Origin: Zobellia galactanivorans
GTDB lineage: Bacteria; Bacteroidota; Bacteroidia; Flavobacteriales; Flavobacteriaceae
NCBI RefSeq assembly: GCF_000973105.1
Contig: NC_015844.1
Span: 1,546,501-1,610,500 of the forward strand
Direction of reading: 5' to 3'
DNA: 64,000 nt
The stretch's first letter is position 1. Every line of letters begins with the position of its first letter. Below are positions 1-52,221 of this stretch, in pieces. Under the pieces are notes generated by a model that saw nothing but the letters and a program-made list of their open reading frames with translations, did not search any database and had not been told where the DNA came from. The translations under genes were made by a program, and so were the position numbers.

Positions 1-64
1 TTACGGTAATCATAAAAGAAGACCGTAGCGCAAAGCGGTATGACCTTCTTAATCTAGGAGGCAT
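1..64 (-). CDS. N-terminus of a sensor histidine kinase (PhoR-like), cut by window edge
   Basis: An open frame starts at ATG 64 (minus) and runs off the left edge, giving 21 residues that begin MPPRLRRSYRFALRSSF. A short basic stretch followed by the start of a hydrophobic segment is how flavobacterial PhoR-type kinases begin, and the frame lies directly downstream, on the same strand, of the OmpR/PhoB-family regulator. An in-frame stop lies 24 bases upstream of the ATG, so no longer start is possible. The kinase identity is inferred from position and N-terminal style; no catalytic motif is visible here. Confidence 0.5.
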   Translation of the reverse strand, partial: MPPRLRRSYRFALRSSFMITV

Positions 65-201
65 AAAAAAAGTGTTTAATATTCGCTACGGAACCTTTAT
101 ACGTCATTTCAGGGCATTTTTCGGCATTCAAAACCCAATCAAGGGGAGAACGGCCCAAAATTACTATAAAAAAGACGTATTACTTAACGATGTAGATTTT
201 A

Positions 202-888
202 TTAGAGCACAAACTTGTAGCCTACACCTTTTACGGTCTTGAAATGATGCTCTCCGATTTTCTCACGAAGCTTTCTAATATGCACGTCGATCGTACGTCC
301 ACCGACCACGACTTCATTGCCCCAGACCCTATCTAGTATAACTTCCCTTTTAAAAACCTTATTGGGTTTTGAAGTCAACAGGGCCAAAAGTTCAAATTCT
401 TTTCTAGGCAGAACGATTTCTTGGCCATCGTTCATTATTTTGTATTCTTCCCTATTGATTACAATATTGCCCACCTTAACAATATCATCCTGCGGGGCAC
501 TTTCTTCCTTTAACCTTCTTAAAAGGGCCTTCACCTTACTGACCAGAACTTTCGGTCTAATGGGCTTGGTAATATAATCATCGGCCCCGGCATCAAAACC
601 GGCCACTTGCGAATAGTCTTCGCCGCGTGCCGTAAGAAAAGTTATGATAGAGTTCTCCAGTCCGGCCGTGTTTCTAATAGTCTCACAAGCCTCTATACCG
701 TCCATCTCGGGCATCATCACATCCAGTATTATCAAATGGGGCTGCTTCTTCTTTGCCATGGCTACGCCTTCAACTCCATTCTTGGCCGTAAAGACTTGAT
801 AGCCTTCGGTAGTAAGATTGTACCCGACAATTTCTAGAATGTCCGGCTCGTCGTCTACCAATAATATCTTAATGTCTTTCTTTTTCAT
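202..888 (-). CDS. OmpR/PhoB-family response regulator
   Basis: A cytoplasmic DNA-binding regulator of 228 residues, full length for the family. The receiver domain (about residues 6-121) has the acidic pair D12-D13, phospho-acceptor D56 in LDVMMPEMDG, T86 and the conserved K108 in ITKPI. The C-terminal winged helix (about 137-228) has the family ending GRTIDVHIRKLREKI...TVKGVGYKF. The gene lies upstream of a probable histidine kinase, and its divergent intergenic region carries 11-bp-spaced TTAAC repeats resembling PhoP/PhoB binding sites, so PhoB is the best guess. The exact regulon is inference; phoB is not assigned as a symbol because other OmpR-family members look alike. Confidence 0.93.
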   Translation of the reverse strand: MKKKDIKILLVDDEPDILEIVGYNLTTEGYQVFTAKNGVEGVAMAKKKQPHLIILDVMMPEMDGIEACETIRNTAGLENSIITFLTARGEDYSQVAGFDAGADDYITKPIRPKVLVSKVKALLRRLKEESAPQDDIVKVGNIVINREEYKIMNDGQEIVLPRKEFELLALLTSKPNKVFKREVILDRVWGNEVVVGGRTIDVHIRKLREKIGEHHFKTVKGVGYKFVL

Positions 889-914
889 AAGGTGTGTAAA
901 GATGGTTATTTCGT

Positions 915-922
915 CAAAAGTA
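915..922 (-). promoter_or_regulatory. Bacteroidetes -7 box for the response regulator gene
   Basis: On the minus strand this reads TACTTTTG, a perfect match to TAnnTTTG, 26 bases upstream of the regulator ATG at 888. No clear TTG (-33) is seen at the usual distance, which would fit a promoter that needs an activator bound at the adjacent TTAAC repeats. Confidence 0.5.
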
Positions 923-949
923 AATATAATACCGACATTCCGGGGTCTC

Positions 950-1010
950 TTAACGTTGATTTAATATAGTAACGTTAGGCTAACCTTATCGCAATAAAGT
1001 TTTAACATGC
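950..1010 (+). promoter_or_regulatory. Tandem TTAAC-type direct repeats, Pho-box-like operator
   Basis: Half-sites occur at 950 (TTAACGTTG), 961 (TTAATATAG), 969 (GTAACGTTA), 980 (CTAACCTTA), 991 (weak, GCAATAAAG) and 1002 (TTAACATGC). The spacing is 11 bp within 950/961 and within 969/980/991/1002. PhoB/PhoP-family regulators bind direct repeats at 11-bp spacing, and TTAACA-like repeats are the B. subtilis PhoP form. The block lies between the divergent regulator and lipoprotein genes, so it could control either or both. Binding is inferred. Confidence 0.55.
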
Positions 1011-1093
1011 ACATAACTCGACTTTTACCTCACGTAGCGTTATTTGCCTTGTTTAATAATTGAGTAGAACTAAATAACACTCAAACATTTATA

Positions 1094-3496
1094 ATGAAAC
1101 TAAATAGTAACGAAATGAAAAAATCTCTTTTCTCTTTATTGGCCTTTGCGTCACTCGCCATTATTTCTTCTTGTAGTAGCGACGACGGTGGTCCAACCCC
1201 TAATCCCAATCCTGATCCAGAGGGTGAGGAAATAACTAAAACGGGTATTATTACGGAGGACGAAACCTGGGAAGCCGAAAATATCTATATATTGGATGGC
1301 AAAGTGGTGGTTGACGAAGGTGTTACCCTTACAATTGAGCCAGGAACTATTATTAAAGGTGAGCTTGGTGAAGAAACTCTTGCCTCTGCACTTGTAGTGG
1401 ATCAAGGTGGGAAGATTATGGCAGAAGGTACTGCTAGCCAACCTATTATATTTACTTCTATTGAAGATGGCATTAAACAAGGTGAAACTACAGGAACTCT
1501 TACTACAGCTACTAAGGGCCGTTGGGGTGGTGTTATCATCTTGGGTAAAGCACCAATCTCTGTAAACGGAGACCTTCAAACTGCACAGGTAGAAGGTTTG
1601 CCTGTTGATGAATCTTACGGACAGTACGGTGGTACTGATACAGCTGATAATTCAGGTGTTCTTAAATATGTATCTATACGTCACGGTGGTGTTACAATTG
1701 CACCGGATAACGAAATCAACGGATTAACCCTAGGTGGTGTTGGTTCCGGTACGGTTATAGAAAATATTGAGGTAATAGCTAACGATGATGACGGTATCGA
1801 GTGGTTCGGTGGATCTGTAAACGTTACAAATGCTTTGGTATGGGCACAAAGTGATGATGGTTTTGATACTGATGAAGCTTGGTCCGGAACTCTTACTAAC
1901 GGTGTAGTTATAATGGAAGGTGAATCTGGTTCAGGTCTTGAGCTTGACGGTCCTGCAGGTAGTGCTGCTACTGAAAGTACCGCTTTCACAATGACAGGTA
2001 TTACACTTATAGGAAACGGAAGTACTAGCAAGTATGCGGATCTAAGAGACGGAACACTCGTTAACCTTAACAATGTTTTGGCCTATGGTTTCTCTGAAGG
2101 TTCTACTGTAAATATCGCTGATGCCGATACTGCTAAAGAGCTTACTGATGGTCGTATCACTTTCTCTAACTGGGAAATGGTATTGCCAGAAGGAAGCACT
2201 ATTGCAGATGTTTTAGCTGGTGATGATATTGCAGAAGGAGACGAAACTAAATTTACTGATAACGCTACGGCTGTTGGAACAGGAACTACAGGTGCTGATT
2301 TAGATGCATTTGCATGGACTTTAGCTGCTAGTGAACAAGCTATTGCTGTTACGCCTCAAGGAACTACAATTACAAAATCAGGTATTCTTACTTCAGACGA
2401 AACTTGGACAGCTGATAACATTTATATCTTAGACGGTAAAGTTGTAGTAGACGAAGGTGTCACTCTTACAATTGAGCCAGGAACTATTATTAAAGGTGAG
2501 CTTGGTGAAGAAACTCTTGCCTCTGCACTTGTAGTGGATCAAGGAGGAATGATTATGGCCGAAGGTACTTCTGATAAACCGATTATTTTTACTACAGTAG
2601 AAGATGGAATCGTTCAAGGAGAAACTGCAAGCACACTTACCACTGCCACTAAAGGCCGTTGGGGTGGTGTTATCGTTCTTGGTAAAGCACCAATCTCCGT
2701 AAACGGAGACCTTCAAACTGCACAGGTAGAAGGTTTGCCTGTTGATGAATCTTACGGACAGTACGGTGGTACCGATGCAGCAGATAACTCTGGTGTTCTT
2801 AAATATGTATCTATACGTCACGGTGGTGTTACAATTGCACCGGATAACGAAATCAACGGATTAACCCTAGGTGGTGTTGGTTCTGGTACGGTTGTAGAAA
2901 ATATTGAAGTAGTTGCTAACGATGATGACGGTATCGAGTGGTTCGGTGGGTCTGTAAATGTTACAAATGCTGTAGTATGGGCACAAAGTGATGACGGTTT
3001 TGATACTGATGAAGCTTGGTCCGGAACTCTTACTAACGGTGTAGTTATAATGGAAGGTGAATCTGGTTCAGGTCTTGAGCTTGATGGTCCTGCAGGTAGT
3101 GCTGCTACAGAAGCTACGGCGTTCACCATGACAGGTATTACACTTATAGGAAACGGAAGTACTAGCAAGTATGCGGATCTAAGAGACGGAACACTCGTTA
3201 ACCTTAACAATGTTTTGGCCTATGGTTTCTCTGCAGGTTCTACAGTAAATATTGCTGATGCCGATACTGCTAAAGAGCTTACTGATGGTCGTATCACTTT
3301 CTCTAACTGGGAAATGGTTCTTCCTGAAGGCACTGCTGTTGCTGATGTTTTAGCTGGTGATGATATTGCAGGAGGAGACGAAACTAAATTTACTGACAAC
3401 GCTGATGGTATCGCAGCTGCAGCTGATGCTTCTGAAGGTGTTGGTGCTGATCTATCTGCTTTTTCATGGGCATGGTCTGCTGGTGAATTAGAGTAG
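1094..3496 (+). CDS. Surface/periplasmic lipoprotein with two near-identical beta-helix repeats
   Basis: An 800-residue lipoprotein. The signal peptide ends in the lipobox AIISSC with Cys27, followed by SSDDGG and a Pro/Asn-rich linker. The alternative start M8 (nt 1115) gives a more usual signal peptide (MKKSLFSLLAFASL). The mature part consists of two copies of a roughly 378-residue unit (residues 47-425 and 426-800) that differ at few positions; each has VTLTIEPGTIIKGE, a Gly-rich GGTD/VSIRHGG region and repeated hydrophobic strands like a right-handed parallel beta-helix. The gene lies upstream of and probably works with the TonB-dependent receptor, beside a Pho-like regulator. The ligand is unknown. 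Homologues are often labelled only as hypothetical proteins. Confidence 0.85.
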   Translation: MKLNSNEMKKSLFSLLAFASLAIISSCSSDDGGPTPNPNPDPEGEEITKTGIITEDETWEAENIYILDGKVVVDEGVTLTIEPGTIIKGELGEETLASALVVDQGGKIMAEGTASQPIIFTSIEDGIKQGETTGTLTTATKGRWGGVIILGKAPISVNGDLQTAQVEGLPVDESYGQYGGTDTADNSGVLKYVSIRHGGVTIAPDNEINGLTLGGVGSGTVIENIEVIANDDDGIEWFGGSVNVTNALVWAQSDDGFDTDEAWSGTLTNGVVIMEGESGSGLELDGPAGSAATESTAFTMTGITLIGNGSTSKYADLRDGTLVNLNNVLAYGFSEGSTVNIADADTAKELTDGRITFSNWEMVLPEGSTIADVLAGDDIAEGDETKFTDNATAVGTGTTGADLDAFAWTLAASEQAIAVTPQGTTITKSGILTSDETWTADNIYILDGKVVVDEGVTLTIEPGTIIKGELGEETLASALVVDQGGMIMAEGTSDKPIIFTTVEDGIVQGETASTLTTATKGRWGGVIVLGKAPISVNGDLQTAQVEGLPVDESYGQYGGTDAADNSGVLKYVSIRHGGVTIAPDNEINGLTLGGVGSGTVVENIEVVANDDDGIEWFGGSVNVTNAVVWAQSDDGFDTDEAWSGTLTNGVVIMEGESGSGLELDGPAGSAATEATAFTMTGITLIGNGSTSKYADLRDGTLVNLNNVLAYGFSAGSTVNIADADTAKELTDGRITFSNWEMVLPEGTAVADVLAGDDIAGGDETKFTDNADGIAAAADASEGVGADLSAFSWAWSAGELE
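1232..2368 (+). repeat. Intragenic tandem duplication, copy 1
   Basis: First of two in-frame units offset by 1137 bases (379 codons). Long blocks match the second unit at nucleotide level, for example the segment around 1331-1405 versus 2468-2542. Differences cluster at the unit starts and just before the unit ends. Confidence 0.9.
2369..3493 (+). repeat. Intragenic tandem duplication, copy 2
   Basis: Second in-frame unit of the beta-helix lipoprotein, starting at ITKSGIL. It ends at the stop codon. Very high nucleotide identity to copy 1, including synonymous positions, implies a recent duplication or ongoing gene conversion. Confidence 0.9.
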
Positions 3497-41774: not shown

Positions 41775-43907
41775 TTAAAACCTAACCGTAGCTCCCAATA
41801 AGAAATTCGTTCCTGCCTGTGGATAGTAATAGATATACCCACCTCCATAATCCGCTCCGTTCGAAACAAACTTTGAATCAAAGATATTGTTCACCAAACC
41901 GGATAGGGTGATGCTCTTAACAAAAGTATTTACATCAATTTGATATTGAATATTGAAATCGGTCTGGGAATACCAATCCAACACCGAGTCTTCGTTATGA
42001 ATATTGTTCATGTATTGTTTTCCCACGTATTTGTTCAACAACGACAACTGCAGGTTGTAAAGGGGATTGTAGCCCAAAACGTTACCCGTAATGATATTAG
42101 GGGAAAATGCGATGGTGGTATTGCCCAATTCTTCTAAGACGCCATTGTTCTCCGTAAAAAAATCTATGTTCTTATTAGAGCTTACGGCTAAATTCGGTCG
42201 CCAAAAAAACTTCTTCCCGATCTGAACATTTGCATCCAACTCGAATCCGAGTCTGTAACTATCCCCAACGTTGGCACGCAACGGAGCCCCTACATCGTTG
42301 AGCTGCCCTGTCAACACCAATTGGTCTTTGTACTTCATATAATAGGCATTGGCATTCAGTTGGAACGAAGTGGAGACATAACGCCACCCCAACTCAAAAT
42401 CGTTCAATTTTTCCGATTTAGGGCTTCCCCCTTCGTAATCGTTCCTATTCGGCTCACGATTAGCAACGGCATAACTGAAATAGAAATTGTTATTGGCATC
42501 CAAGTTAAATACCACCCCCGCCTTAGGGTTGAAAAAACCAAAGGTATCATCAACAAGTCCGGTATCTTCCCCGTTGGCCGAATAACCCACCCTTCTATAT
42601 TGAAGGTCGCCAAAGAGGCTCCATTTATCGTTTAGACCATAATTCACCTTTGAATACACATTGAAATCCGATTTATTGGAATCGTCTTCATAATACCTAT
42701 CGCGAATATGGCTATCGGTAGCATATCGTGCCCAAATAACTTCACCGAAGTGATCCCCTTGATACGAATTCCATCCTCCCCCTAAAATAACATCTAAACG
42801 GTCTTTGGTATAATTGGCCGAAAAGACTAGGCCGTAGAACTTGTTATCTAACCAGCGACGACGTATCAAATCGGTCGTTTCAACCAAATCACCATTCACC
42901 ACTATGGGATCAAAGCCGTATGTTGCAAAGTCATCTTCTTGTTTGTACTGTTCAAAAAATCCGCTCCCTTTGGTAAAATGAAGGGCTACATTAGAACTCC
43001 AATTCCCAGAAAGCTTCTGATTCCAAAGAAATTGGGCATGGTTTTGCTTGTAGTCATCCACCTCATTGTCATAGAATTGCTCGTCTCCGTTTTCATCGGT
43101 GTAGGCCCCCGCCGAATTATAAGTTCTATCCTCTAATAAGGTTTCCGCATCAACGCCGTTCCATGCCTGATAAGTCACCTCATGCCCACCGAAGAGTAAG
43201 GCCTTCAATTGTGTTTTACCGTCGCTGTAGGCCACTTGCAAGAAGTAAGAATCCAGATTGGAGGAAGCCCTATCCACATAGCCATCTGAAGTTATTCGCG
43301 ACAATCGACCGGAAATCTCTATCCGATCATTGAGTAGACCCGTACTGAACTTGATATTGTTCCTAAGCGTATTAAAGCTCCCTACGGACGATGAAACCTG
43401 GCCATAGGCTTCTTCAGAAACGGCATCCGTCAATAGGTTCAGGCTAGCTCCAAAGGCTCCTGAACCGTTGGTAGACGTACCCACACCACGCTGAAGTTGC
43501 AAACTTTCGGTAGAGGAGGCAAAATCGGGCATATTGACCCAAAAGGTACCATGCGACTCAGAATCGTTGTAAGGTATACCGTTTATGGTAACGTTAACGC
43601 GCGTATTGTCACTACCACGTACGCGAATACCCGTATAGCCAACTCCGGCTCCCGCATCGGAGGTAGTTACCACCCCAGGCAGAAAATTCATGAGAATAGG
43701 AATATCTTGACCCAAATTACGCGAAGCGTATTCTTCTTTTTTAAGATTGGAAAAAGTTACGGGAGTAGCCTTATTGACCCTAATAGCAGAAACAAAAACC
43801 TCATCTAGGTTTATTTCTTTGCCGGTAAGGGAATCGACTTCCTTTTCTTGGGCAAAAACCTGGCCCGTAATCAACAGGCCGACCAAAAGCATTACAATGT
43901 GTTTCAT
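41775..43907 (-). CDS. TonB-dependent receptor under TPP riboswitch control (predicted thiamin transporter)
   Basis: 710 residues. Signal peptide (1-19, ending VFAQ), no carboxypeptidase-like domain, plug (about 45-160; LPGVVTTSDAGAGVGYTGIRVRG), 22-strand barrel ending TNFLLGATVRF. The plug and barrel style fits the small-ligand (cobalamin, siderophore, thiamin) class rather than SusC. The leader carries a thiamin-pyrophosphate riboswitch, and riboswitch-linked TonB receptors are known candidate thiamin importers in Bacteroidota. Substrate is therefore inferred from regulation. A terminator-like feature in the leader is weak, so control may be translational. Confidence 0.9.
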   Translation of the reverse strand: MKHIVMLLVGLLITGQVFAQEKEVDSLTGKEINLDEVFVSAIRVNKATPVTFSNLKKEEYASRNLGQDIPILMNFLPGVVTTSDAGAGVGYTGIRVRGSDNTRVNVTINGIPYNDSESHGTFWVNMPDFASSTESLQLQRGVGTSTNGSGAFGASLNLLTDAVSEEAYGQVSSSVGSFNTLRNNIKFSTGLLNDRIEISGRLSRITSDGYVDRASSNLDSYFLQVAYSDGKTQLKALLFGGHEVTYQAWNGVDAETLLEDRTYNSAGAYTDENGDEQFYDNEVDDYKQNHAQFLWNQKLSGNWSSNVALHFTKGSGFFEQYKQEDDFATYGFDPIVVNGDLVETTDLIRRRWLDNKFYGLVFSANYTKDRLDVILGGGWNSYQGDHFGEVIWARYATDSHIRDRYYEDDSNKSDFNVYSKVNYGLNDKWSLFGDLQYRRVGYSANGEDTGLVDDTFGFFNPKAGVVFNLDANNNFYFSYAVANREPNRNDYEGGSPKSEKLNDFELGWRYVSTSFQLNANAYYMKYKDQLVLTGQLNDVGAPLRANVGDSYRLGFELDANVQIGKKFFWRPNLAVSSNKNIDFFTENNGVLEELGNTTIAFSPNIITGNVLGYNPLYNLQLSLLNKYVGKQYMNNIHNEDSVLDWYSQTDFNIQYQIDVNTFVKSITLSGLVNNIFDSKFVSNGADYGGGYIYYYPQAGTNFLLGATVRF

Positions 43908-44142: not shown

Positions 44143-44295
44143 GCTCGGCCCTTTTACATTTCATAACTAATTTGATCAAAAGACAGGGCTTCGTTCATCG
44201 ATCGTGCCATAGCCTGCAAACAATTAACGCTTATCGGTAAACCCTATCAACATTATATCCGTATTTTTAGAAAGACTTTTGTGCAACATACGAAC

Positions 44296-46776
44296 ATGGT
44301 AAACGCCTCTAAAAAATCTAAAAACAAATTCACCTTAAAAATTGTCGCCAGCTATCTCATTTTGGCTATACTGGCGGCAGCCGTTGGTTATTTCGTATAT
44401 ACCGAGATACAAACCTATATTTCAACCGAAACCGCCGATGTAAACGATGAAAAATTACTACGGACAAGTTCGTTGATGACCAATCTTTACGAGGCCGAAA
44501 GTCTTTCTAAGCTCGCCTTACAGAGCGACGAGAAAATCAATTTTGACGCCTACGCCCTTAAAATAGACTCCATACAAATAGAAATCGACACCCTAAAGCA
44601 GCTAATGTTGGGCGAAGAACAAAAAAGCCTGTTAGATAGCCTGCAGGTTCTATTGAGCCAAAAAGTAAGCAACAACAACGAGTTGCGAAAATTGAAAGTC
44701 AAAAGCAAGTCGGCCAATTCGTTGGACAAGGCCTTAAAGGAATTTGAAAAAATAGAGGAATCTTTCGGCAAGTTTTCAGCAGAAAACCTTTTTACCGACT
44801 TCGACCAGTTGTCCCCAAAGGTGCAGCAATCCCTAAGGGACTATGCCGACCTGATCAGTAAAAACGTTCCGAATTCAGGCGATAACACCAAGAACGCCGC
44901 CTATGTAGATTCTATCTTGAACGTTTCAAAAGCCATGTTGAGAAAGGCCAAATTGGCCGATACCCGATCGCAACGCTCCTTGGCGCAAAAGGAAATCGAG
45001 GTAAACCGTAACGACCTTGAACTCTCGCGCCAGCTCCAAAATATCATTGCCGCCTTTGAAAAAGAAATTATAGCCAGCAGTTACAACACCAGTATCGTAA
45101 AACGGGAAACCCTAAAAAGAACTACCCGGATCGCCGGTTTGGCGGCACTATTAGGATTTTTGATCGTGGGCATCTTTTCTTTTTTGATTACAAGGGATTA
45201 TTGGAAAGTACAGACCTATCGAATGCGGTTAGAAAAAGAGAAAAAATTCTCCGAGTCGATTTTAAAGAGTCGCGAGCAGCTGATCTCTACCGTAAGCCAC
45301 GATTTGCGCACACCGTTAAACACCATTAGTGGATATTCGGAACTACTCGAAAGCACGGGACTGACCCGCAAGCAAAACGGGTATATAAAGAATGTAAAAT
45401 CGGCCTCGGAATATGTCGGCAATCTAGTGAACGACCTACTCGATTTCTCAAAACTGGAAGCAGGTAAGCTCAAAATCGAAAAGGTTCCCTTTATCCCGGC
45501 CCATCTGATTCAAGAAACCGCCGAAAACCTTCAGGCCTTAAACATGCAAAAAGGCCTAAAATTGGTCTTGGAAATCGCCCCACAACTTCAACAAACCGTA
45601 TTGGGCGACCCGTTCAGGATTCGACAAATACTGACCAACCTTATGGGCAACGCCTTTAAGTTTACCGAGCAGGGCCAAATCAAGATCATAGCCACCGCAA
45701 CCAAGGGCAAGGACAAGGCCATAACGGCACGTATTCAAGTGGTCGACACAGGCATAGGCATAGCCAAGGAAAAACAACATTTAATATTCAAGGAATTCAC
45801 CCAAGCCGACAGTGATACGGATAAAAAGTTTGGCGGTCACGGTCTGGGACTCACCATTTCAAAAAAATTGGCCGAGCTCCTAAAGGGCAGCTTGACCCTT
45901 GAAAGCCAATTGGGCTCAGGAAGTACCTTTACCCTACAGCTACCCCTTGAAATTACCGATGCGGTAAAAAAACCAAATAAGGAAATGCCCTATTTGGCCC
46001 CCAAACTACGTATGCTGATCATTGACGACGATACGGCCTTATTACATATGCTACGCGAACTGGCAGAGAGTATGGGCATTACGGCACATACCTTTACCAA
46101 TTTTCTTTCCATTGAAAAAGACTCCCATTTAGCCTATGACATAGTACTTACCGATATTCAAATGCCACAGGTAACGGGGTTCGAAGTATTGAAAAAACTC
46201 AAATCGGGGGCCTACAAGCACTATACCGACCAACCTATCGTTGCCATGACCGGCAGAAGGGACCTAGGGCCGGAAGCCTATATTGGGGTCGGATTTTCCC
46301 AAGTGCTACAAAAGCCCTTTCCAAAAGGGGAACTTATTGCCACACTCAAGCTATTGGGCATTACCACCCAAGACGAAGCGCCCAAAGAAGGAAAGACAGA
46401 GGCCCTTGACCGTGAACCCAAATTATACAACCTTGACATCATCCATTCTTTTTTAGGAAGGAACGAAGATGCGATACAAGACGTACTGGGCACCTTTTTA
46501 AGCGATACAGAAACCAACATGAAACTTCTTGAGGAAACGGTAGGCACACAAGACTACCCCCAAGTAAATCAAGTAGCACACCGTATGCTGCCCATGTTCA
46601 GGCAACTGAAAGCCGAAAGCTGTGTAGTTGCATTGGAACACATGGAAGTTGCAACCCCTGAAGCCATGGACCATAAGACCCTTTCAGATTCATTTGCGAA
46701 TTTGAAATCAGATGTAGCGGATTTAACAAGCGAACTCAAAGAGCGCCTAACTACAAGTCCAGATTATAATGATTGA
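44296..46776 (+). CDS. Hybrid sensor histidine kinase with receiver and Hpt domains
   Basis: 826 residues from ATG 44296; the in-frame GTG 15 bases upstream is less likely. TM1 about 15-35, a helical periplasmic region of about 240 residues, TM2 about 280-300, HisKA with TVSHDLRTPLNTISGY (His near 335), HATPase with GGHGLGLTISKKLAELL, a receiver (about 570-685; acceptor Asp near 621 in LTDIQMPQ) and a C-terminal Hpt domain (about 710-815) with VAHRMLP (His near 762). A complete His-Asp-His relay. It is convergent with a sigma-54-type response regulator, overlapping by 26 bases, so the two are candidate partners. Confidence 0.93.
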   Translation: MVNASKKSKNKFTLKIVASYLILAILAAAVGYFVYTEIQTYISTETADVNDEKLLRTSSLMTNLYEAESLSKLALQSDEKINFDAYALKIDSIQIEIDTLKQLMLGEEQKSLLDSLQVLLSQKVSNNNELRKLKVKSKSANSLDKALKEFEKIEESFGKFSAENLFTDFDQLSPKVQQSLRDYADLISKNVPNSGDNTKNAAYVDSILNVSKAMLRKAKLADTRSQRSLAQKEIEVNRNDLELSRQLQNIIAAFEKEIIASSYNTSIVKRETLKRTTRIAGLAALLGFLIVGIFSFLITRDYWKVQTYRMRLEKEKKFSESILKSREQLISTVSHDLRTPLNTISGYSELLESTGLTRKQNGYIKNVKSASEYVGNLVNDLLDFSKLEAGKLKIEKVPFIPAHLIQETAENLQALNMQKGLKLVLEIAPQLQQTVLGDPFRIRQILTNLMGNAFKFTEQGQIKIIATATKGKDKAITARIQVVDTGIGIAKEKQHLIFKEFTQADSDTDKKFGGHGLGLTISKKLAELLKGSLTLESQLGSGSTFTLQLPLEITDAVKKPNKEMPYLAPKLRMLIIDDDTALLHMLRELAESMGITAHTFTNFLSIEKDSHLAYDIVLTDIQMPQVTGFEVLKKLKSGAYKHYTDQPIVAMTGRRDLGPEAYIGVGFSQVLQKPFPKGELIATLKLLGITTQDEAPKEGKTEALDREPKLYNLDIIHSFLGRNEDAIQDVLGTFLSDTETNMKLLEETVGTQDYPQVNQVAHRMLPMFRQLKAESCVVALEHMEVATPEAMDHKTLSDSFANLKSDVADLTSELKERLTTSPDYND

Positions 46777-48133
46777 TTTTATTATAAAGCGTTTTCCGTG
46801 TCACCTGAAGTAATTTTGCCGCTTTCGACTTATTGAAATTGGTTTTTTTCAAGGCTTTGATAATACGGTCCTTTTCAAATTCCGATTTTGAAAAATTCTC
46901 TATGGTAGTCGTTTTTTCTTGCGGTTGAAGCACCTCTCGTGGCAAGGCTTCCATTTGAACCTCATCGCCCGTGGTCAATAACACGGCCCTTTTCACTACA
47001 TTCTGTAGTTCACGAAGGTTACCCGGCCAGTGGTATTGCTGAAAAGCTTCCCAAACTTCCGAAGAAAATCCGTCAACGTTTTTATCCAGACTTGCATTTG
47101 CCTTGTTCAAAAAATTCTCGGCAAATAACATCAAGTCCTCGAATCGTTCCTCTAGGGAAGGAATCTGTATGGAGAATTCATTCAATCTATGAAAAAGGTC
47201 TTCCCTAAAAGTACCTTTCTCCACCGCCTCGGTCAAATCTTCGTTAGTAGCCGTAATGATACGCACATCTACATCAATCTCTTTCGTACTACCAACCCGT
47301 TTTATTTTTCGTTCCTGCAAGGCCCGAAGCAATTGTATTTGGTTCTCGTACGATAGGTTACCCACCTCATCCAAGAACAAGGTCCCTTTATTGGCAGCCT
47401 CAAAATTCCCTATCTTATCTTCTACCGCTCCGGTAAAACTTCCTTTTATATGTCCGAAAAACTCACTTGTCGCCAATTCTTTGGGTATGGCACCACAATC
47501 GACAGCAATAAAATTAAAGTCCTTGCGCTTGCTGTTATCGTGAATGGCCTTGGCCGTCACCTCCTTACCCGTACCGCTTTCCCCGGTAATTAAAACGGAC
47601 ATATCGGTAGGGGCTACCAGTTTTATATAGTCTTCCAATTTTTTGGAAGCCTCACTCACTCCTTTAACTATAGTATTCGTTCCTCCCACTGGGCGGGTAG
47701 CCTTGGAACCATTTTGCCTTGAGTCCTTTTTAGACCCGTCTCCCTCTGTTGGGGCGGTTTGGGCCATACTGACCTCCACCTTTAAGGCGTTATCTAAGAT
47801 CATTACGATTTCATCAGGGGTAAAAGGCTTTGAAATGTAGTCGAAGGCCCCCTTTTTCATGGCATTTACGGCCGTACCAACCTCAGCATAACCGGTCATA
47901 ACGATTACCTGTGTCTTTGGACTCACTCCTTTTATATCGGTCAGTAACTGTATACCGTCATAATCGGGCAAACGCAAATCGGTTAATATCAAATCAAAAT
48001 CGGTTTTCCCGAATTTTTCCTTGGCATCTGGGGCTGTAAAGCTCGTCTCTACTTCGTAGCCGTGTCTCGTCAAAAACTTTTGAAGCATCTGACAAAAAGC
48101 GGCGTCATCTTCAATGATTAAAAGGTTTGGCAT
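46751..48133 (-). CDS. Sigma-54-dependent response regulator (NtrC family)
   Basis: 460 residues from ATG 48133 (MPNLLIIEDD); a longer reading frame adds 15 residues but spoils the receiver start. Receiver 1-120 with D9, D10, acceptor D52; AAA+ domain about 155-380 with Walker A GESGTGKE (184-191), the sigma-54 contact loop GSFTGA (231-236), Walker B LFLDEVG and arginine finger region; C-terminal Fis-type HTH with KSKAAKLLQVTRKTLYNKI. It should activate RpoN polymerase from upstream enhancers. A convergent hybrid kinase and a downstream array of secreted proteins with -24-like elements lie beside it. Confidence 0.95.
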   Translation of the reverse strand: MPNLLIIEDDAAFCQMLQKFLTRHGYEVETSFTAPDAKEKFGKTDFDLILTDLRLPDYDGIQLLTDIKGVSPKTQVIVMTGYAEVGTAVNAMKKGAFDYISKPFTPDEIVMILDNALKVEVSMAQTAPTEGDGSKKDSRQNGSKATRPVGGTNTIVKGVSEASKKLEDYIKLVAPTDMSVLITGESGTGKEVTAKAIHDNSKRKDFNFIAVDCGAIPKELATSEFFGHIKGSFTGAVEDKIGNFEAANKGTLFLDEVGNLSYENQIQLLRALQERKIKRVGSTKEIDVDVRIITATNEDLTEAVEKGTFREDLFHRLNEFSIQIPSLEERFEDLMLFAENFLNKANASLDKNVDGFSSEVWEAFQQYHWPGNLRELQNVVKRAVLLTTGDEVQMEALPREVLQPQEKTTTIENFSKSEFEKDRIIKALKKTNFNKSKAAKLLQVTRKTLYNKINHYNLDL

Positions 48134-48241
48134 AAAGCTGTTTAGTATTCTGTATCTATCTACGTAAAAATAGTACAAGAAAGCTGTCTCTCCTCTAAAT
48201 TTATCATAAAAGATATTTTTAAAAAAGGGCCAAAACGCAAA

Positions 48242-48269
48242 AAAGGAACCGTTATATCACGGTTCCTTT
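48242..48269 (-). terminator. Terminator of the small secreted-protein pair
   Basis: Perfect 11-bp stem AAAGGAACCGT / ACGGTTCCTTT, loop TATATC, followed on the minus strand by TTTTTGCG. Confidence 0.85.
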
Positions 48270-48311
48270 CTCAAAATTGGTTCGGAATTTCTTCCGACAA
48301 TTTAGTTCTTC

Positions 48312-48617
48312 TTATTGTTGAACGGCGTTACCTTCTTCATCAACGATAAGGGCACCAGAAGTACCATCTTCCAAAGAAACTTCCAATTTGTATTGGTTAG
48401 CTTCGTTCTTGCTTGCTTTGTTGATCGTAGCACCTGGGTAGTTGGTTTCGATCATTGCAGTTACGGCTTCTGGAACTTCTTCCAAGGCAACCTCGGCAAA
48501 AGCATCTTGGGCTACAGCTTCAGTAGCTGTTTCTGTAGCGTCGGCAGCTTGCTCTTCTTGAGCGAATGCAGTTAAACTTCCTAGTGCGAAAACGGTGGTA
48601 ATAAATAATTTTTTCAT
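48312..48617 (-). CDS. Small secreted PepSY-like protein, copy A
   Basis: 101 residues. Signal peptide (1-19, ending TAFAQ), an acidic Ala/Thr/Glu linker (EEQAADATETATEAVAQ), then a domain of about 60 residues: EEVPEAVTAMIETNYPGATINKASKNEANQY and YKLEVSLEDGTSGALIVDEEGN. The helix, YPGATI turn and paired strands resemble PepSY/BLIP-type inhibitor or ligand-binding folds. Only 3 residues differ from copy B directly upstream, and it has no -24-like element of its own, so it is probably transcribed with copy B. Function unknown. Confidence 0.82.
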   Translation of the reverse strand: MKKLFITTVFALGSLTAFAQEEQAADATETATEAVAQDAFAEVALEEVPEAVTAMIETNYPGATINKASKNEANQYKLEVSLEDGTSGALIVDEEGNAVQQ

Positions 48618-48690
48618 AATATTCTTATTTTATATGTGTAACTAATTAATGGTAATATTCAATGTAGGGGAACTAAACGCTAGGCGCTTT

Positions 48691-48996
48691 TTATTGTTGA
48701 ACGGCGTTGCCTTCTTCATCAACGATAAGGGCACCAGAAGTACCATCTTCCAAAGAAACTTCCAATTTGTATTGGTTAGCCTCATTCTTGCTAGCCTTGT
48801 TGATCGTAGCTCCAGGGTAGTTGGTTTCAACCATTGTAGTTACGGCTTCCGGAACTTCTTCCAAAGCAACCTCGGCAAAAGCGTCTTGGGCTACAGCTTC
48901 AGTAGCTGTTTCTGTAGCGTCAGTAGCTTGCTCTTCTTGAGCGAATGCAGTTAAACTTCCTAATGCGAAAACGGTAGTGATAAATAATTTTTTCAT
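48691..48996 (-). CDS. Small secreted PepSY-like protein, copy B
   Basis: 101 residues, 98 identical to copy A. Signal peptide ends TAFAQ; domain layout the same. It is preceded by a conserved TTGGTATCAT element (49042-49058) at a distance that puts a transcript start about 35 bases before its ATG. Heads a two-gene unit with copy A, 73 bases apart. The periplasm or cell surface is the expected location. Confidence 0.82.
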   Translation of the reverse strand: MKKLFITTVFALGSLTAFAQEEQATDATETATEAVAQDAFAEVALEEVPEAVTTMVETNYPGATINKASKNEANQYKLEVSLEDGTSGALIVDEEGNAVQQ

Positions 48997-49041
48997 GATA
49001 TTCAGGTTTTAAGTGTTATTAATTAATTTCAGTTAGTATAT

Positions 49042-49058
49042 AGAAAATATGATACCAA
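49042..49058 (-). promoter_or_regulatory. Conserved -24/-12-like promoter element, copy B
   Basis: Minus strand reads TTGGTATCATATTTTCT. GG is followed by exactly 10 bases and then TC, where sigma-54 promoters have GG-N10-GC. The same layout occurs before the two other array promoters. Its -12 end is 47 bases from the start codon. Confidence 0.55.
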
Positions 49059-49433
49059 AACAGCTAAAACCCCTAATCAATTAAAAAACAGTTGGTTATA
49101 TATTTTGTCGATTTTCAAAACTGTGTATTATTGTAAAATTCTGTTTCATTTGGGTAATAATTTCACAACTCAACCATCGCGATGTAAAACCCTAGCCTTG
49201 GGCTTTTTTTAATTTGTTGGGATGGATCAGGTCTAAAAGCAAAAAATCCGAGCAACTTATGCCGGACCATTTTACATTAAGACCTTCTTCTTTTTTCCTT
49301 TAATCGATAAGCCGGTATCGGTACTCTAGGAAGCTACATCAATATCGTTATTCTCCCTTCTTTATAAATTAGACGATGCCCTATTACTTTATATTTTCGA
49401 ACACTCAAAAAATTATGACCTTATACAAAATAG

Positions 49434-49463
49434 AAAGGGGCTGCAGATGCAACCCCTTTCTGA
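49434..49463 (-). terminator. Terminator of the third PepSY-like gene
   Basis: Nine-base stem AGAAAGGGG / CCCCTTTCT with loop containing TGCA...TGCA, 39 bases after the stop on the minus strand, followed by ATTTTGT. Confidence 0.75.
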
Positions 49464-49501
49464 CCAAACCAACTTGATACAAAACAAATAACTCAAGTTA
49501 T

Positions 49502-49807
49502 TTACATTTCAATCCAGTTACCATTTTCGTCAGCGTACAAAGTACCGGCAGTACCATCTTCTAGGGAAACCTCTAGCTTGAACTGCTTTGCTTCGTTCAC
49601 GTATGCTTTATCAATAGATGCAGTAGGATAGTTTTTAGCAACTGCTGCGGTCACCGCTTCGGGCAACTCATCGGCAGATACTTCAGAAAAATCATCTTGA
49701 GTCGCTGCGGCCTCAGTGGCTGCAGCTTCAACTGCCGTAGACTCCTCTTGGGCAAAAGCCGAAAGACTTCCTAATGCCAATATTGCTGTGATAAATATCT
49801 TTTTCAT
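49502..49807 (-). CDS. Small secreted PepSY-like protein, third paralogue
   Basis: 101 residues from ATG 49807 (MKKIFITAILALGSLSAFAQ); a longer upstream reading frame overlaps the promoter element and is rejected. Same architecture: signal peptide, acidic linker rich in Ala/Glu (TAVEAAATEAAATQ), domain with NYPTASIDKAYVNEAKQFKLEVSLEDGTAG and the ending DENGNWIEM. Clearly diverged from copies A/B, so the array is older than their duplication. Confidence 0.82.
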   Translation of the reverse strand: MKKIFITAILALGSLSAFAQEESTAVEAAATEAAATQDDFSEVSADELPEAVTAAVAKNYPTASIDKAYVNEAKQFKLEVSLEDGTAGTLYADENGNWIEM

Positions 49808-49843
49808 GATGTGTTCTTTAGAATTAATAACTGTATACTCTAA

Positions 49844-49860
49844 AGAAATAATGATACCAA
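49844..49860 (-). promoter_or_regulatory. Conserved -24/-12-like promoter element, third paralogue
   Basis: Minus strand TTGGTATCATTATTTCT, with GG-N10-TC. It shares the TTGGTATCAT core with the copy B element while flanks differ. -12 end is 38 bases from ATG 49807. Confidence 0.55.
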
Positions 49861-49923
49861 AATCGCAAAACAAACATAAATATTTGATTTACAGTTATAT
49901 AACATATTTTTAAAATATGTAAA

Positions 49924-49961
49924 GTGTGTAATTGTGTGTATTTCTAGTACTTTGGTGTGTA
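49924..49961 (-). promoter_or_regulatory. GTGTGTA cluster upstream of the third paralogue
   Basis: GTGTGTA (plus-strand reading) occurs three times at 49924, 49934 and 49955, 64-101 bases beyond the -24-like GG. That is the right place for an enhancer bound by an NtrC-type activator. Role inferred. Confidence 0.4.
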
Positions 49962-50065
49962 AAATGTATACGAATACCCATGATCCACACCCGAGCGAAG
50001 TATCAGCAACACCTTCCTTCGCATACAGCATCTTTCGAACTGAAACCCTATAGCTAGATATATTA

Positions 50066-50101
50066 AAAAAGCCCCATCTTCAAATGAAGATGAGGCTTTT
50101 T
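50066..50101 (-). terminator. Terminator of the fourth PepSY-like gene
   Basis: Stem GCC-C-CATCTTC / GAAGATG-A-GGC extended by A5 / T5 with one mismatch, loop AAAT, 39 bases after the stop on the minus strand. Confidence 0.8.
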
Positions 50102-50139
50102 ACTAACTATCTAACTATGCTACTAATAAAAGTATTAGC

Positions 50140-50448
50140 TTATTTTTCGATCCAGTTACCTTCGGCGTCAGCATACAATTCAGCAGTTTCACCATCTTCT
50201 TTGGCAACTTCCAATTTGTACTGGGCATCTTCGTTCATGAAGGCTTTAGAAATAGTTGCACCTGGGTGGGCAGCCTCTAAAGCTTCAGAGATAGCGGCAG
50301 GAACTTCTTCAACTGCTACTTCAGCAAAAGCATCTTGAGCTTCAACAACCTCAGTTGCTACTGTTTCTTCTACTACTGTTTCTTCTTCTTGTGCAAAAGC
50401 AGTCATTGTACCTAAAGACAATACTGCAGCAAACATTAAGTTTTTCAT
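50140..50448 (-). CDS. Small secreted PepSY-like protein, fourth paralogue
   Basis: 102 residues. Signal peptide MKNLMFAAVLSLGTMTAFAQ; acidic Val/Glu/Thr linker (EEETVVEETVATEVVEAQ); domain with EEVPAAISEALEAAHPGATISKAFMNEDAQYKLEVAKEDG and the ending DAEGNWIEK. Most diverged member of the array. Own promoter element and terminator. The conserved parts across all four paralogues are the helix before the P-[GT]-A-[TS]-I turn and the QYKLEV strand. Confidence 0.82.
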   Translation of the reverse strand: MKNLMFAAVLSLGTMTAFAQEEETVVEETVATEVVEAQDAFAEVAVEEVPAAISEALEAAHPGATISKAFMNEDAQYKLEVAKEDGETAELYADAEGNWIEK

Positions 50449-50486
50449 TTTGTGTGTGTTTTAAATTATTGATTTGTTTTGATAAT

Positions 50487-50502
50487 CTCTTAGTACTAAG
50501 AG
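50487..50502. repeat. Perfect 16-base palindrome overlapping the -12 region
   Basis: CTCTTAGTACTAAGAG, dyad centred at 50494/50495, overlaps the -12-like part of the fourth paralogue promoter. It might be a repressor operator specific to this copy; not found before the others. Confidence 0.4.
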
Positions 50503-50515
50503 AAAATGATGCCAA
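50499..50515 (-). promoter_or_regulatory. Conserved -24/-12-like promoter element, fourth paralogue
   Basis: Minus strand TTGGCATCATTTTCTCT, GG-N10-TC. This copy has TTGGCA, the exact sigma-54 -24 core. -12 end is 52 bases from ATG 50448. Confidence 0.58.
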
Positions 50516-50601: not shown

Positions 50602-50646
50602 GTGTGTAAAAACATAAAAAAGTGTGTAAAAAATACACACTTTTTT
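50602..50646. promoter_or_regulatory. GTGTGTA repeats and dyad: enhancer candidate and/or terminator
   Basis: GTGTGTA at 50602 and 50622 with the inverted TACACAC at 50634-50640. The latter two form a stem flanked by A6 and T6 (50616-50646), which also looks like a terminator for the DUF4301 gene on the minus strand. Sites lie 87-125 bases upstream of the fourth paralogue's -24 element. Both roles may hold. Confidence 0.5.
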
Positions 50647-50682: not shown

Positions 50683-52221
50683 CTATTTGACCTGATGTGC
50701 GGGCCGCAATAGATCGTTTACGGTTTTTACCGGGTTGAAAGTTGAAGATGGTACCTCTACAAATATGGTGTTCCAAAACGCCATGGCGCCATTCCACAAT
50801 CCTGGAAGTTCCAGGGCCTTTAACTCCCTGCCTTCTTTGGTCTTGCCCGTAATAAACCCTTGCTTGGTATCGATGTAGTTCATCAGGTTGTATTTTTCCC
50901 CTTTATAGTTCTTCACGGCACAGACCAAGTCGACCGGATTGAAATGGGTCGAGTTTTTGAGGATCGCGGCCTGATGCGCGTTATCCATATCAATTTGGGC
51001 TGACTCAATGATCTGTAACGAAATATTTCCTTTTCGGTCATTGATCCAGAATGGGCCGCCTCCGGGTTCTCCTTCGTTCTTGACCATCCCACAGATACGT
51101 ATGGGCCTATCAATCTTATCTTTTAACACTTCAATTTGTTCGCCGATACTGAATCCTGCGAAATTATCTGAGAAACGCACGTTAAGTTCGTTCTCCAAGA
51201 AGCTCTTGATCTCGTCTAATTGACTTGAGGTCAGTTCATCGTTATCGAGACTTTTGGCATAGGCAAAGGCCTTTTCTTGGACACTTAAGAGCACCCCTGC
51301 CAATATCTTTTTACTATCCGCTACCTCGCCTGCAAATCTTGGAACGGTAACATTGTCGATATTCTTGATAAATATGATATCGGCATCTTGCTCGTTCAAA
51401 TTCTCGATTAGGGCACCATGGCCTCCAGGTCTAAACAAGACGGAACCATCACTGTTTCGAAAGGGTTCGTTCCGCATATCTACCGCAATAGTATCGGTCG
51501 ATGGTTTTTGATAGGAATAACTCACCTTAAAAGAGGTCTCGGTAGCCTTCGACACCCTTTCACTTACGGCGTTGAACTCCGCATTGAACATATCGCCATG
51601 CTGTTCGCTAATGGTAAAGTGCAACTCTGCGGTATTACCAGTCTTGGCATACACCGATGCTTCCTTTAAATGTTCTTCAAAAGGCGTAGCCGTATGGTCC
51701 CCATAGTTATGGAAAGGTAATAATCCTTTTGGATAAAACCCGTAATTAAGACCATCTTCAGACATCATTTCCTTTACAAAAAGATAGAGTTCCTCATCTT
51801 TGGAAGAAGTCTTTCCCGCAATGCGCTGTTTGACCAAATCGTAGAAGGCGAAGTCGGTTATACCCTCCGAAAAGGCTTTCATGGCCTTATCGTCCGTACG
51901 TTCAAAATACGCTTCCAACGATTCTTCCTTAGGGTCGTAAGCATCCAAAAAATTGAACAAAGCCTTGAACATACGCGATGCGGCCCCTGAAGCAGGCACA
52001 AATTTCAACAAAGACAGCCCTGTACTCGAGGCTTCGAACTTTTGAATCAAATCCTTTTCTTCGGATGGGGTAAATTTTGAAAGCCCTTCACCTATTGTAA
52101 CGGCCTTTTCAAGTTGTACAAACGGAATACCCTCTTTAAAGGTCTCTATTTGCTCGTTTACCTTTTTCTCCGAAATTCCCTTTTTGGCCAGCAGGGCCAA
52201 ATCATTTTCTGTTAGTGTCAT
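50683..52221 (-). CDS. DUF4301 family protein
   Basis: 512 residues, cytoplasmic. LLKFVPASGAASRMFKALFNF (about 73-93) and GLNYGFYPKGLLPFHNYG with TPFEEHL are landmarks of DUF4301; PASGAASRM resembles a nucleotidyl-transfer loop of sugar-nucleotide pyrophosphorylases, and DNFAGFSIGEQIEVLKDK...FWINDRKGNIS fits that idea. The ATG overlaps the stop of the NadR-like gene (ATGA), so they are coupled. Function unknown; context suggests vitamin salvage. Confidence 0.85.
   Translation of the reverse strand: MTLTENDLALLAKKGISEKKVNEQIETFKEGIPFVQLEKAVTIGEGLSKFTPSEEKDLIQKFEASSTGLSLLKFVPASGAASRMFKALFNFLDAYDPKEESLEAYFERTDDKAMKAFSEGITDFAFYDLVKQRIAGKTSSKDEELYLFVKEMMSEDGLNYGFYPKGLLPFHNYGDHTATPFEEHLKEASVYAKTGNTAELHFTISEQHGDMFNAEFNAVSERVSKATETSFKVSYSYQKPSTDTIAVDMRNEPFRNSDGSVLFRPGGHGALIENLNEQDADIIFIKNIDNVTVPRFAGEVADSKKILAGVLLSVQEKAFAYAKSLDNDELTSSQLDEIKSFLENELNVRFSDNFAGFSIGEQIEVLKDKIDRPIRICGMVKNEGEPGGGPFWINDRKGNISLQIIESAQIDMDNAHQAAILKNSTHFNPVDLVCAVKNYKGEKYNLMNYIDTKQGFITGKTKEGRELKALELPGLWNGAMAFWNTIFVEVPSSTFNPVKTVNDLLRPAHQVK

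Follow-up and report, generated by a model that had tools for sequence, protein, structure and literature searches.

A candidate sigma-54-type circuit linking a hybrid kinase and an NtrC-type activator to an array of PepSY-like genes in Zobellia galactanivorans

Results

Organization of the locus

The window, i.e. the whole stretch of 64,000 nt that was analysed (Zobellia galactanivorans assembly GCF_000973105.1, NC_015844.1, positions 1,546,501-1,610,500, forward strand), carries a hybrid sensor kinase gene on the plus strand (44296..46776) which converges with the gene of an NtrC-type response regulator on the minus strand (46751..48133), the stop ends of the two overlapping by 26 bp. Four small PepSY-like genes, all on the minus strand, are designated A (48312..48617), B (48691..48996), C (49502..49807) and D (50140..50448), of which A is placed 73 bp behind B and has no promoter element of its own. 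This layout had been proposed by an earlier sequence-only reading and was borne out by domains and coordinates. A terminator-like hairpin is located 3' of gene C (49432..49461, minus strand), and an Rfam scan of the window returned no family at the gathering score. The conserved surroundings of the module also comprise an upstream DUF4301 gene (50683..52221, minus strand) and a TonB-dependent receptor gene (41775..43907, minus strand), whose membership of the circuit is putative at most.

The kinase frame opens with a GTG at position 44281 and ends at 46776 of the plus strand, and its alternative ATG start at 44296 agrees with the kinase starts picked by script in relatives. The protein consists of a transmembrane segment, a helical periplasmic sensor, a second transmembrane segment, HisKA, HATPase and receiver domains and an HPt-like C-terminus, the membrane segments and the periplasmic placing being read off the sequence. 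Pfam matched HisKA, HATPase_c and Response_reg, whereas the C-terminal HPt stayed under the cut-off (PF01627, E = 0.093). The His-Asp-His relay claimed earlier is plausible but short of proof, because the HPt-like motif H[KRQ]M[LA] is present in 49/56 kinases despite the weak Pfam match. The model of the sensor domain was all-helical (pLDDT 78.5) and gave no Foldseek match at E ≤ 0.001; the sensor domains of TorS and McpS were among its weak Foldseek matches and were not relied on. In a profile search of the PDB its top match was 3va9, a sensor kinase, at a weak E of 0.028.

The regulator combines a receiver, an AAA+ domain with a GSFTGA loop and a Fis-type HTH, and its matches to the receiver, Sigma54_activat and HTH_8 models place it by domain content among the NtrC-type bacterial enhancer-binding proteins. 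NtrC-type regulators open RpoN promoters at -24/-12, and rpoN was found in 149/149 genomes. The loop, noticed earlier as intact, reads GSFTGA in the window; of 57 relatives read, 55 share this form and the other two have GAFTGA. With the ZraR equivalog model the activator scored 370.2 bits against a cut-off of 760, and it was equally near to the AtoC, PEP-CTERM-box, NtrC and ZraR models, under every cut-off. A second sigma-54 activator, encoded near grpE in the genome of the window, has the loop GAFTSA in 18/19 loci read. A coupling of the activator loop to promoter base -13 was considered and dropped, because the GAFTGA activators L096 and L097 have TTCC and TTTC promoters.

Relative to protein A, identity is 97% for B, 61% for C and 54% for D, and the N-termini of all four are signal-peptide-like as judged from the sequence, the proteins being predicted to be secreted or exported. 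PF11396 matched A, B and C with E ∼1e-4 and 21.8-22.7 bits and D with E = 0.0073 and 17.0 bits, all below its gathering cut-off of 28.3. The earlier description of four paralogous secreted PepSY-like proteins was thus upheld as regards paralogy and signal-peptide-like starts, but the PepSY assignment lies under the Pfam threshold. A structure model of a PepSY-like protein (pLDDT 72.7) retrieved 3due, 4dsd and 3db7 as top Foldseek matches, all weak (E 0.05-0.07 for these three; E 0.05-0.13 and TM ∼0.4 over the best matches), and sequence profiles matched the window proteins to 3due and 3db7 with E ∼1e-5. The computed pI of 4.05 equals the lower bound of the program and was not used.

Co-occurrence of activator and PepSY-like genes

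In 149 Flavobacteriaceae genomes, the activator and array-type PepSY genes were found together in 49, the activator alone in two, PepSY alone in two and neither in 96, a distribution whose Fisher value overstates independence because the genomes are related. The co-occurrence in relatives, for which the sequence-only reading had suggested a search, is therefore present. Of the 50 activator loci fetched from other genomes, 46 have a PepSY gene upstream of the activator and on its strand (gap ≤832 bp), and 49 have a convergent kinase after the activator, within 100 bp in 47.

Ten PepSY-profile ORFs of activator genomes are located away from the activator; six have a good GG-N10-C element and five an upstream palindrome (see below) of at least 13 matching positions. 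One of the ten is a contig-edge fragment (L165), two (L166 and L168) are long and distant proteins that lack both elements, and in L164 the 3' end is cut and the upstream region readable. Conversely, the PepSY gene of G080, a genome with no activator match, has no kinase or activator beside it and lacks both elements; this activator-less comparison consists of one genome, as in a second (L109) the gene is cut by the contig end. The architecture is thus kept at roughly half of the PepSY genes not linked to the activator and is missing from one activator-less genome, which further supports the proposal that the adjacent activator has the array as its regulon.

In a search of 296 genomes of the class, an activator relative was detected in 49 genomes of other families. 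Twenty-five of these were read with ∼1.5 kb flanks, and a PepSY gene adjoins the activator in two (L182 and L185), where visual inspection showed no clear element of the family type before the PepSY gene; another (L193) has a weak PepSY profile match (E 9e-4) in a short ORF.

A -24/-12-like element precedes the leading PepSY-like genes

The GG-N10-TC element reported earlier before three of the four genes was recovered on the minus strand upstream of B (TTGGTATCATATTTTCT, 49042..49058, exact), C (TTGGTATCATTATTTCT, 49844..49860, exact) and D (TTGGCATCATTTTCTCT, 50499..50515, one mismatch). The exact element TTGGYATNNNNNTTTCT has nine matches in the 5.52 Mb genome as against six in the backward control, and only those of B and C pass a position filter (outside ORFs of at least 150 aa and 25-140 bp before the ATG of an ORF of at least 60 aa). 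Occurrence of the same promoter before many unrelated genes, which would have spoken against a dedicated regulon, was thus not seen: in this genome, under this filter, the exact element was found before no unrelated gene. The loose pattern was mildly enriched inside the window (41 versus 28.7), and a genome scan allowing three mismatches (211+169 versus 197+187 in the backward control) was useless by itself.

In the 50 activator loci from other genomes, the exact element precedes 38 of 66 leading PepSY genes (mean of 0.03 in Markov sequences) and none of 11 following PepSY genes or 162 control genes. A relaxed element, whose scoring favours GG and C letters at sigma-54 spacing, was found before 60/66 leading genes, corresponding to 44/46 loci, the remaining six genes scoring under its threshold. 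Base -13 is T in 38/38 exact sites, the exact pattern having permitted T or G, and T or C in ∼92% of the 60 relaxed sites. In contrast, the grpE promoters of the family have canonical TTGC with G at -13, a reading in which 30 of 60 places were given to the motif and 7 of those 30 loci were unreadable by it. GG and C are kept at their spacing, and the earlier reading is corrected as to the -12 box, which is non-canonical, TTTC or TTCC rather than TTGC. Use of sigma-54 at the array promoters is likely, and falls short of proof because -13 is T where the consensus and grpE have G.

Another sigma factor might use these promoters, with the activator working elsewhere, and we regard this as improbable. 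Most -12 boxes do lack the canonical G at -13, and promoters of a sigma-A variant and of ECF factors have been mapped in the family, as stated in the consulted parts of PMC9723704. Against it, the housekeeping box TAnnTTTG occurs within 120 bp of just 1/66 leading PepSY genes, although it is equally missing before receptor genes (0/38), GG and C keep sigma-54 spacing in the 60 genes noted above under a scoring biased toward these letters, and the genes co-occur with a sigma-54 activator and bear a palindrome at enhancer distance.

A palindrome at near-fixed spacing upstream of the element

A palindrome, AGTGTGTAA-N3-TTACACACT, is located ∼116 bp upstream of the element; it is a feature without earlier report and fits an activator site (UAS). 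In the window the proposed UAS of D (50621..50641, no strand assigned) agrees with the consensus at 17/18 positions, whereas the candidates of B (49149..49169) and C (49954..49974), likewise without strand, are degenerate (12/18, weak and near background). A UAS of at least 13/18 was found at 49/66 leading PepSY genes, with 1.1 expected, and at 0/162 controls, and in 44 of the 45 genes with both parts its spacing to the element is 102-130 bp. As exceptions, L159 has a perfect UAS and no clear -24/-12, and L161 and L162 have the element and a UAS of just 12. The elements are kept in genera where the activator is just 55-60% identical.

The palindrome could be merely the intrinsic terminator of DUF4301, with the GG-N10-TC likeness left over from gene duplication. 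It lies ∼40-60 bp past the DUF4301 stop in the window, between A/T flanks, and was classed as terminator-like, and DUF4301 is the assigned upstream gene in 25 of 45 palindrome cases. However, PepSY genes precede it in 11 and other or unassigned genes in nine, the sequence of its arms is conserved beyond pairing, the elements persist at the low activator identities given above, and, while its distance to the element has an sd of 9, that to the upstream stop ranges between 2 and 3381 bp (sd 584 over the 42 cases in which a gene was assigned). Because the spacing follows the element, the terminator reading was rejected; we hold it to be very improbable. Together with the co-occurrence and the element, the palindrome at near-fixed spacing supports the adjacent activator as the regulator of the array.

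In the window's own genome a UAS with at most one mismatch occurs at one place, in the window, and with at most three mismatches at two, as against one in the backward control. Across genomes, and counting against a dedicated circuit, a UAS with at most one mismatch was present in only 16/51 with and in 4/98 without the activator. The activator might also run a larger and more degenerate regulon that takes in, for example, further envelope genes and of which the array would be the strongest target. Of 52 sites of at least 14/18 in 61 sequences, which had been chosen for activator or PepSY, 49 lie no more than 400 bp ahead of a PepSY start. The degenerate copies of B and C imply that weak sites elsewhere could escape detection, the second own-genome site has three mismatches, and one 16/18 site (G081) is located away from any PepSY gene, yet the low own-genome count and the concentration before PepSY starts make the larger regulon rather unlikely. 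The array is the only activator target detectable in the window's genome.

Discussion

We consider it highly probable that the module is a dedicated envelope two-component circuit which switches on the PepSY-like array via sigma-54. Sequence comparison shows co-occurrence, a near-fixed promoter architecture, with the persistence and loss described above, and a housekeeping -7 box that is almost missing, and supports the view that in marine Flavobacteriaceae the main visible job of kinase and activator would be to switch on the adjacent PepSY-like set. In the proposed course of events, the membrane-bound hybrid kinase would sense a periplasmic cue and pass phosphate along His-Asp-His to the convergently encoded activator, which would bind the palindrome ∼116 bp upstream of the GG-N10-(T/C)C promoter and remodel sigma-54 RNA polymerase, so that the small, acidic, exported PepSY-like proteins are turned on from the putative transcription units D, C and B-A.

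The last step is the most speculative: the PepSY-like proteins may bind envelope components that are misfolded or charged, damp the kinase, or do both. Periplasmic ZraP damps its own kinase in ZraPSR, and by analogy the PepSY-like proteins might be envelope-stress effectors, perhaps with such a feedback. The way in which genes for kinase, activator and periplasmic proteins are closely linked resembles ZraPSR, for which a protein titled repressor of ZraSR, presumably ZraP, is on record. With a probability approaching an even chance, the proteins could instead act purely as effectors, be it as chaperone, inhibitor or metal buffer, without kinase feedback, an inhibitor role having been put forward for this fold in the portion of the DUF2874 structure paper available to us (PMC2954215). 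More tentatively, one might picture a widely conserved sigma-54 envelope-stress circuit with an array variable in copy number, PepSY-like proteins as both periplasmic effectors and titratable inhibitors of their kinase, and GG-N10-YC as a distinct sigma-54 subclass apart from the canonical chaperone promoters.

For the PepSY-like proteins, whose biochemistry is little understood, the module supplies a candidate regulator, promoter and testable trigger. In the Flavobacteriaceae, in whose published promoter map chaperones, proteases, gliding genes and unknown exported proteins predominate, it would make a second, separate sigma-54 circuit. The non-canonical -12 boxes of 44 loci in different genera form a natural set for studying promoter reading by sigma-54 and activator, and the kinase-activator-effector unit is compact and testable in laboratory flavobacteria.

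In the openly licensed PMC literature, as far as its accessible texts go, no published description of this composition of kinase, activator and PepSY array was found. Among structurally characterized proteins, those of the window are most like the DUF2874/PF11396 members BVU2987 (3due) and BT0923 (3db7), by profile and as best Foldseek matches; unlike BVU2987, a tandem repeat, they have one repeat and score under the Pfam cut-off. ZraPSR has a non-hybrid kinase, a non-PepSY effector and no multicopy array, whereas the window has a hybrid kinase, a PepSY-like effector and a multicopy array. The two systems share a kinase with a sigma-54-type regulator, a small set of targets, predicted in the case of the window, and a linked protein of the periplasm: according to the excerpted text of PMC7657598, Escherichia coli ZraPSR comprises a sensor kinase and a sigma-54-dependent regulator that directly controls only zraP, zraSR, mgtA and perhaps little else, the chaperone ZraP being among its products, and is tied to envelope stress, and the title naming a repressor of ZraSR is a reference within that article. 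Expression in Z. galactanivorans is the subject of PMC5613140, judging from its accessible part. The sigma-54 (SM4) regulon of Flavobacterium psychrophilum, as presented in the sections of PMC9723704 at hand, has mapped -24/-12 promoters and a theme of envelope and protein quality control, and the targets listed there are chaperones, proteases, genes for gliding and exported proteins whose function is unknown; PepSY is a word that its main text never uses. The array resembles this regulon in bacterial family and in its putative -24/-12 promoters and differs from it in that the family's grpE promoters are canonical. In Porphyromonas gingivalis, the gene of PG0717, a protein with four DUF2874 domains, lies beside the two-component system HaeSR, for which the available portion of PMC3764172 contains no sigma-54 link; there, as with the DUF2874-like genes of the window, the gene of a DUF2874 protein adjoins a two-component system.

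Results

Checks of open reading frames, domains and elements in the window bore out those recognized in the sequence-only reading. In this genome, a single contig of 5,521,712 bases with the window at 1546501-1610500, the hybrid kinase gene (44296-46776, + strand) converges on the NtrC-type activator gene (46751-48133, − strand) with an overlap of 26 bp, and the closest named relative found at the locus, Zobellia uliginosa DSM 2061, carries a 97% identical kinase. The PepSY-like genes A (48312-48617), B (48691-48996), C (49502-49807) and D (50140-50448), all on the − strand, encode small proteins of 101-102 aa. If FA-Q is taken as the end of the signal peptide, their mature parts contain no cysteine and are highly acidic, with a charge computed as −14 to −19 at pH 7. 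Because a terminator-like hairpin lies 3' of gene C, the array is probably transcribed as three units, D, C and B-A. A and B share 97% identity, and in another Zobellia genome (L104, 7645-9154) the last unit consists of four tandem PepSY genes, with the element found only before the first; this tandem and the near-identity of A and B (48312-48996) suggest a recent change in copy number.

Among 149 genomes of the family, covering 148 genera, the activator (E<=1e-130) was present in 51 and an array-type protein (E<=1e-5) likewise in 51, with both in 49 (Fisher, 2e-34; as the genomes are related, this value should not be read as if the events were independent). The co-occurrence that the sequence-only reading had proposed to look for was thus found, and the comparison supports its suggestion that the array is the putative regulon of the adjacent activator. 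Of the two genomes with the activator alone, G092 proved, with an iterated profile, to have a PepSY gene beside that activator. In the activator loci of 50 genomes (L051-L100, the window's own genome excluded), the activator was followed by a convergent kinase in 49 cases, 47 of them with no more than 100 bp between the two genes and L064 with 2.1 kb. In 46 loci a PepSY gene lay upstream of the activator on its strand, the nearest one separated by 832 bp or less. A TonB-dependent receptor and DUF4301 were found within the stretch in 39 and 37 of these loci, respectively. Three genomes (G034, G053 and G071) had no PepSY gene adjoining the activator but one elsewhere, and in G027 neither kinase nor PepSY gene was seen in the 12 kb read around the activator. 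One locus (L089, 992-6041) carries a tandem pair of kinase paralogues beside the activator.

The 50 loci contain 77 PepSY genes, of which 66 are leading, defined by the lack of another PepSY gene in the 110 bp upstream. A search 25-130 bp before the start found the exact pattern TGGYAY-N5-TTKC at 38 of the 66 leading and none of the 11 following genes; in the same loci it was absent from all 29 DUF4301, 38 receptor, 47 activator and 48 kinase genes, and Markov sequences gave a mean of 0.03 and a maximum of 1. By a relaxed score, GG-N10-C was found at 60 of the 66 leading genes, in 44 of 46 loci, 42-99 bp before the start (median 64). The housekeeping −7 box TAnnTTTG occurred within 120 bp of just one of the 66 leading PepSY genes; the same search gave 21/47 activator, 13/48 kinase and 9/29 DUF4301 genes, but 0/38 receptor genes. 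The predicted promoter architecture of the array is conserved and somewhat unusual. At −13, the 60 relaxed sites carry T in 77%, C in 15%, G in 5% and A in 3%, under a score slightly favouring T/C, and all 38 exact sites carry T even though the exact pattern took T or G equally.

rpoN was present in all 149 genomes, and in the window's genome four matches to sigma-54 activators were obtained at E<=1e-30. In F. psychrophilum, published start mapping (PMC9723704) places −24/−12 promoters before grpE, dnaK, groES and others. Of 30 grpE loci examined in the window's family, 23 were readable and 21 scored well, 18 of these, including that of the window's genome, having the canonical TTGC; none of the 23 reached 14 for the upstream palindrome described below. 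Because the family's grpE promoters are canonical, the putative array promoters form a different subclass at −13. A second type of sigma-54 activator, whose gene in the window's genome is close to grpE, was sampled in 19 genomes (L232-L250) and has GAFTSA (18) or GAFTNA (1), not GAFTGA.

A dyad count with no preset motif detected GTGTA-N5-TACAC at 21 of the 46 loci, against an expectation of 0. The full consensus of this putative activator-binding site (UAS), AGTGTGTAA-N3-TTACACACT, was sought in the interval from 130 to 240 bp ahead of the start; 13 or more of 18 positions matched in 49 of 66 leading PepSY genes against 1.1 expected, and in none of 162 control regions. A terminator of DUF4301 was rejected as an explanation, since the palindrome lies at widely varying distances from the upstream stop codon (2 to 3381, sd 584). 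In the 45 leading genes with both parts, the spacings from palindrome centre to TGG fall into three groups about 12 bp apart (102-107 in 8, 115-120 in 27 and 127-130 in 9, with 83 in one), steps that may reflect a preferred helix face or mere shared ancestry. The palindrome with at most one mismatch occurred in 16 of 51 activator genomes versus 4 of the 98 without the activator (Fisher, 9e-6); as a control, the backward pattern matched in 5 genomes. In the window's genome its sole such occurrence is before gene D; the UAS of B and C score 12/18 each, near background, and possibly these genes are activated via D's shared site or via several weak half-sites. In G149, a genome without the activator, a UAS of 17/18 (L172, 2412-2432) directly precedes a 246-aa open frame.

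Genomes with the activator also contain ten PepSY-profile ORFs that are not linked to it (L110, L159-L166 and L168). A clear GG-N10-C stands in the usual position at six of them and a UAS of at least 13 at five, both being present at four (L110, L160, L163 and L164); L159 has a perfect UAS and no clear element, and L161 and L162 combine the element with a UAS scoring 12. Of the other three, one is a fragment cut off at a contig edge, and two encode long, distant proteins and have neither part. In L159 and L163, DUF4301 still adjoins the PepSY gene, which is unlinked from the activator, not from DUF4301. In G080, DUF4301, a single PepSY gene and the receptor are consecutive, and neither kinase nor activator lies between them; no activator match was obtained at E<=1e-130, and in this single genome element and UAS are both absent at the PepSY gene. 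The second PepSY-only genome (L109), its gene being at a contig end, was left out.

Discussion

We regard a dedicated kinase-activator-array circuit as the probable reading of these comparisons, held with good confidence, slightly lowered because every one of the unbiased exact sites shows the departure at −13 and because only roughly half the unlinked genes retain each element. The −13 departure is the main reason for doubting the use of sigma-54, and also the most testable oddity of the system.

As to the role of the PepSY-like proteins, their sequence profiles match 3due and 3db7 (E about 1e-5), and the best structural matches of an AlphaFold model, although weak, are to the DUF2874 group that includes these two. 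An inhibitory binding role has been proposed for this fold (PMC2954215), and PG0717, a DUF2874 protein, adjoins the two-component system HaeSR (PMC3764172). The window's own genome offers a further case (L002, 1483-1926 and 2003-3259, − strand), in which an ordinary sensor kinase has a PF11396 protein of two repeats immediately behind it. The PF11396 family may accompany two-component systems more widely. Together with the analogy to ZraPSR, the inhibitory proposal and these two-component neighbours lead us to favour an envelope-stress output as the putative role; that the proteins damp their own kinase may be the case, as speculation.

The system is an NtrC-type two-component switch, a known kind, with a PepSY-like output class that is apparently new, no account of it having been found in the literature searched for such switches with PepSY-like output. 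Its closest working analogue is ZraPSR (PMC7657598).
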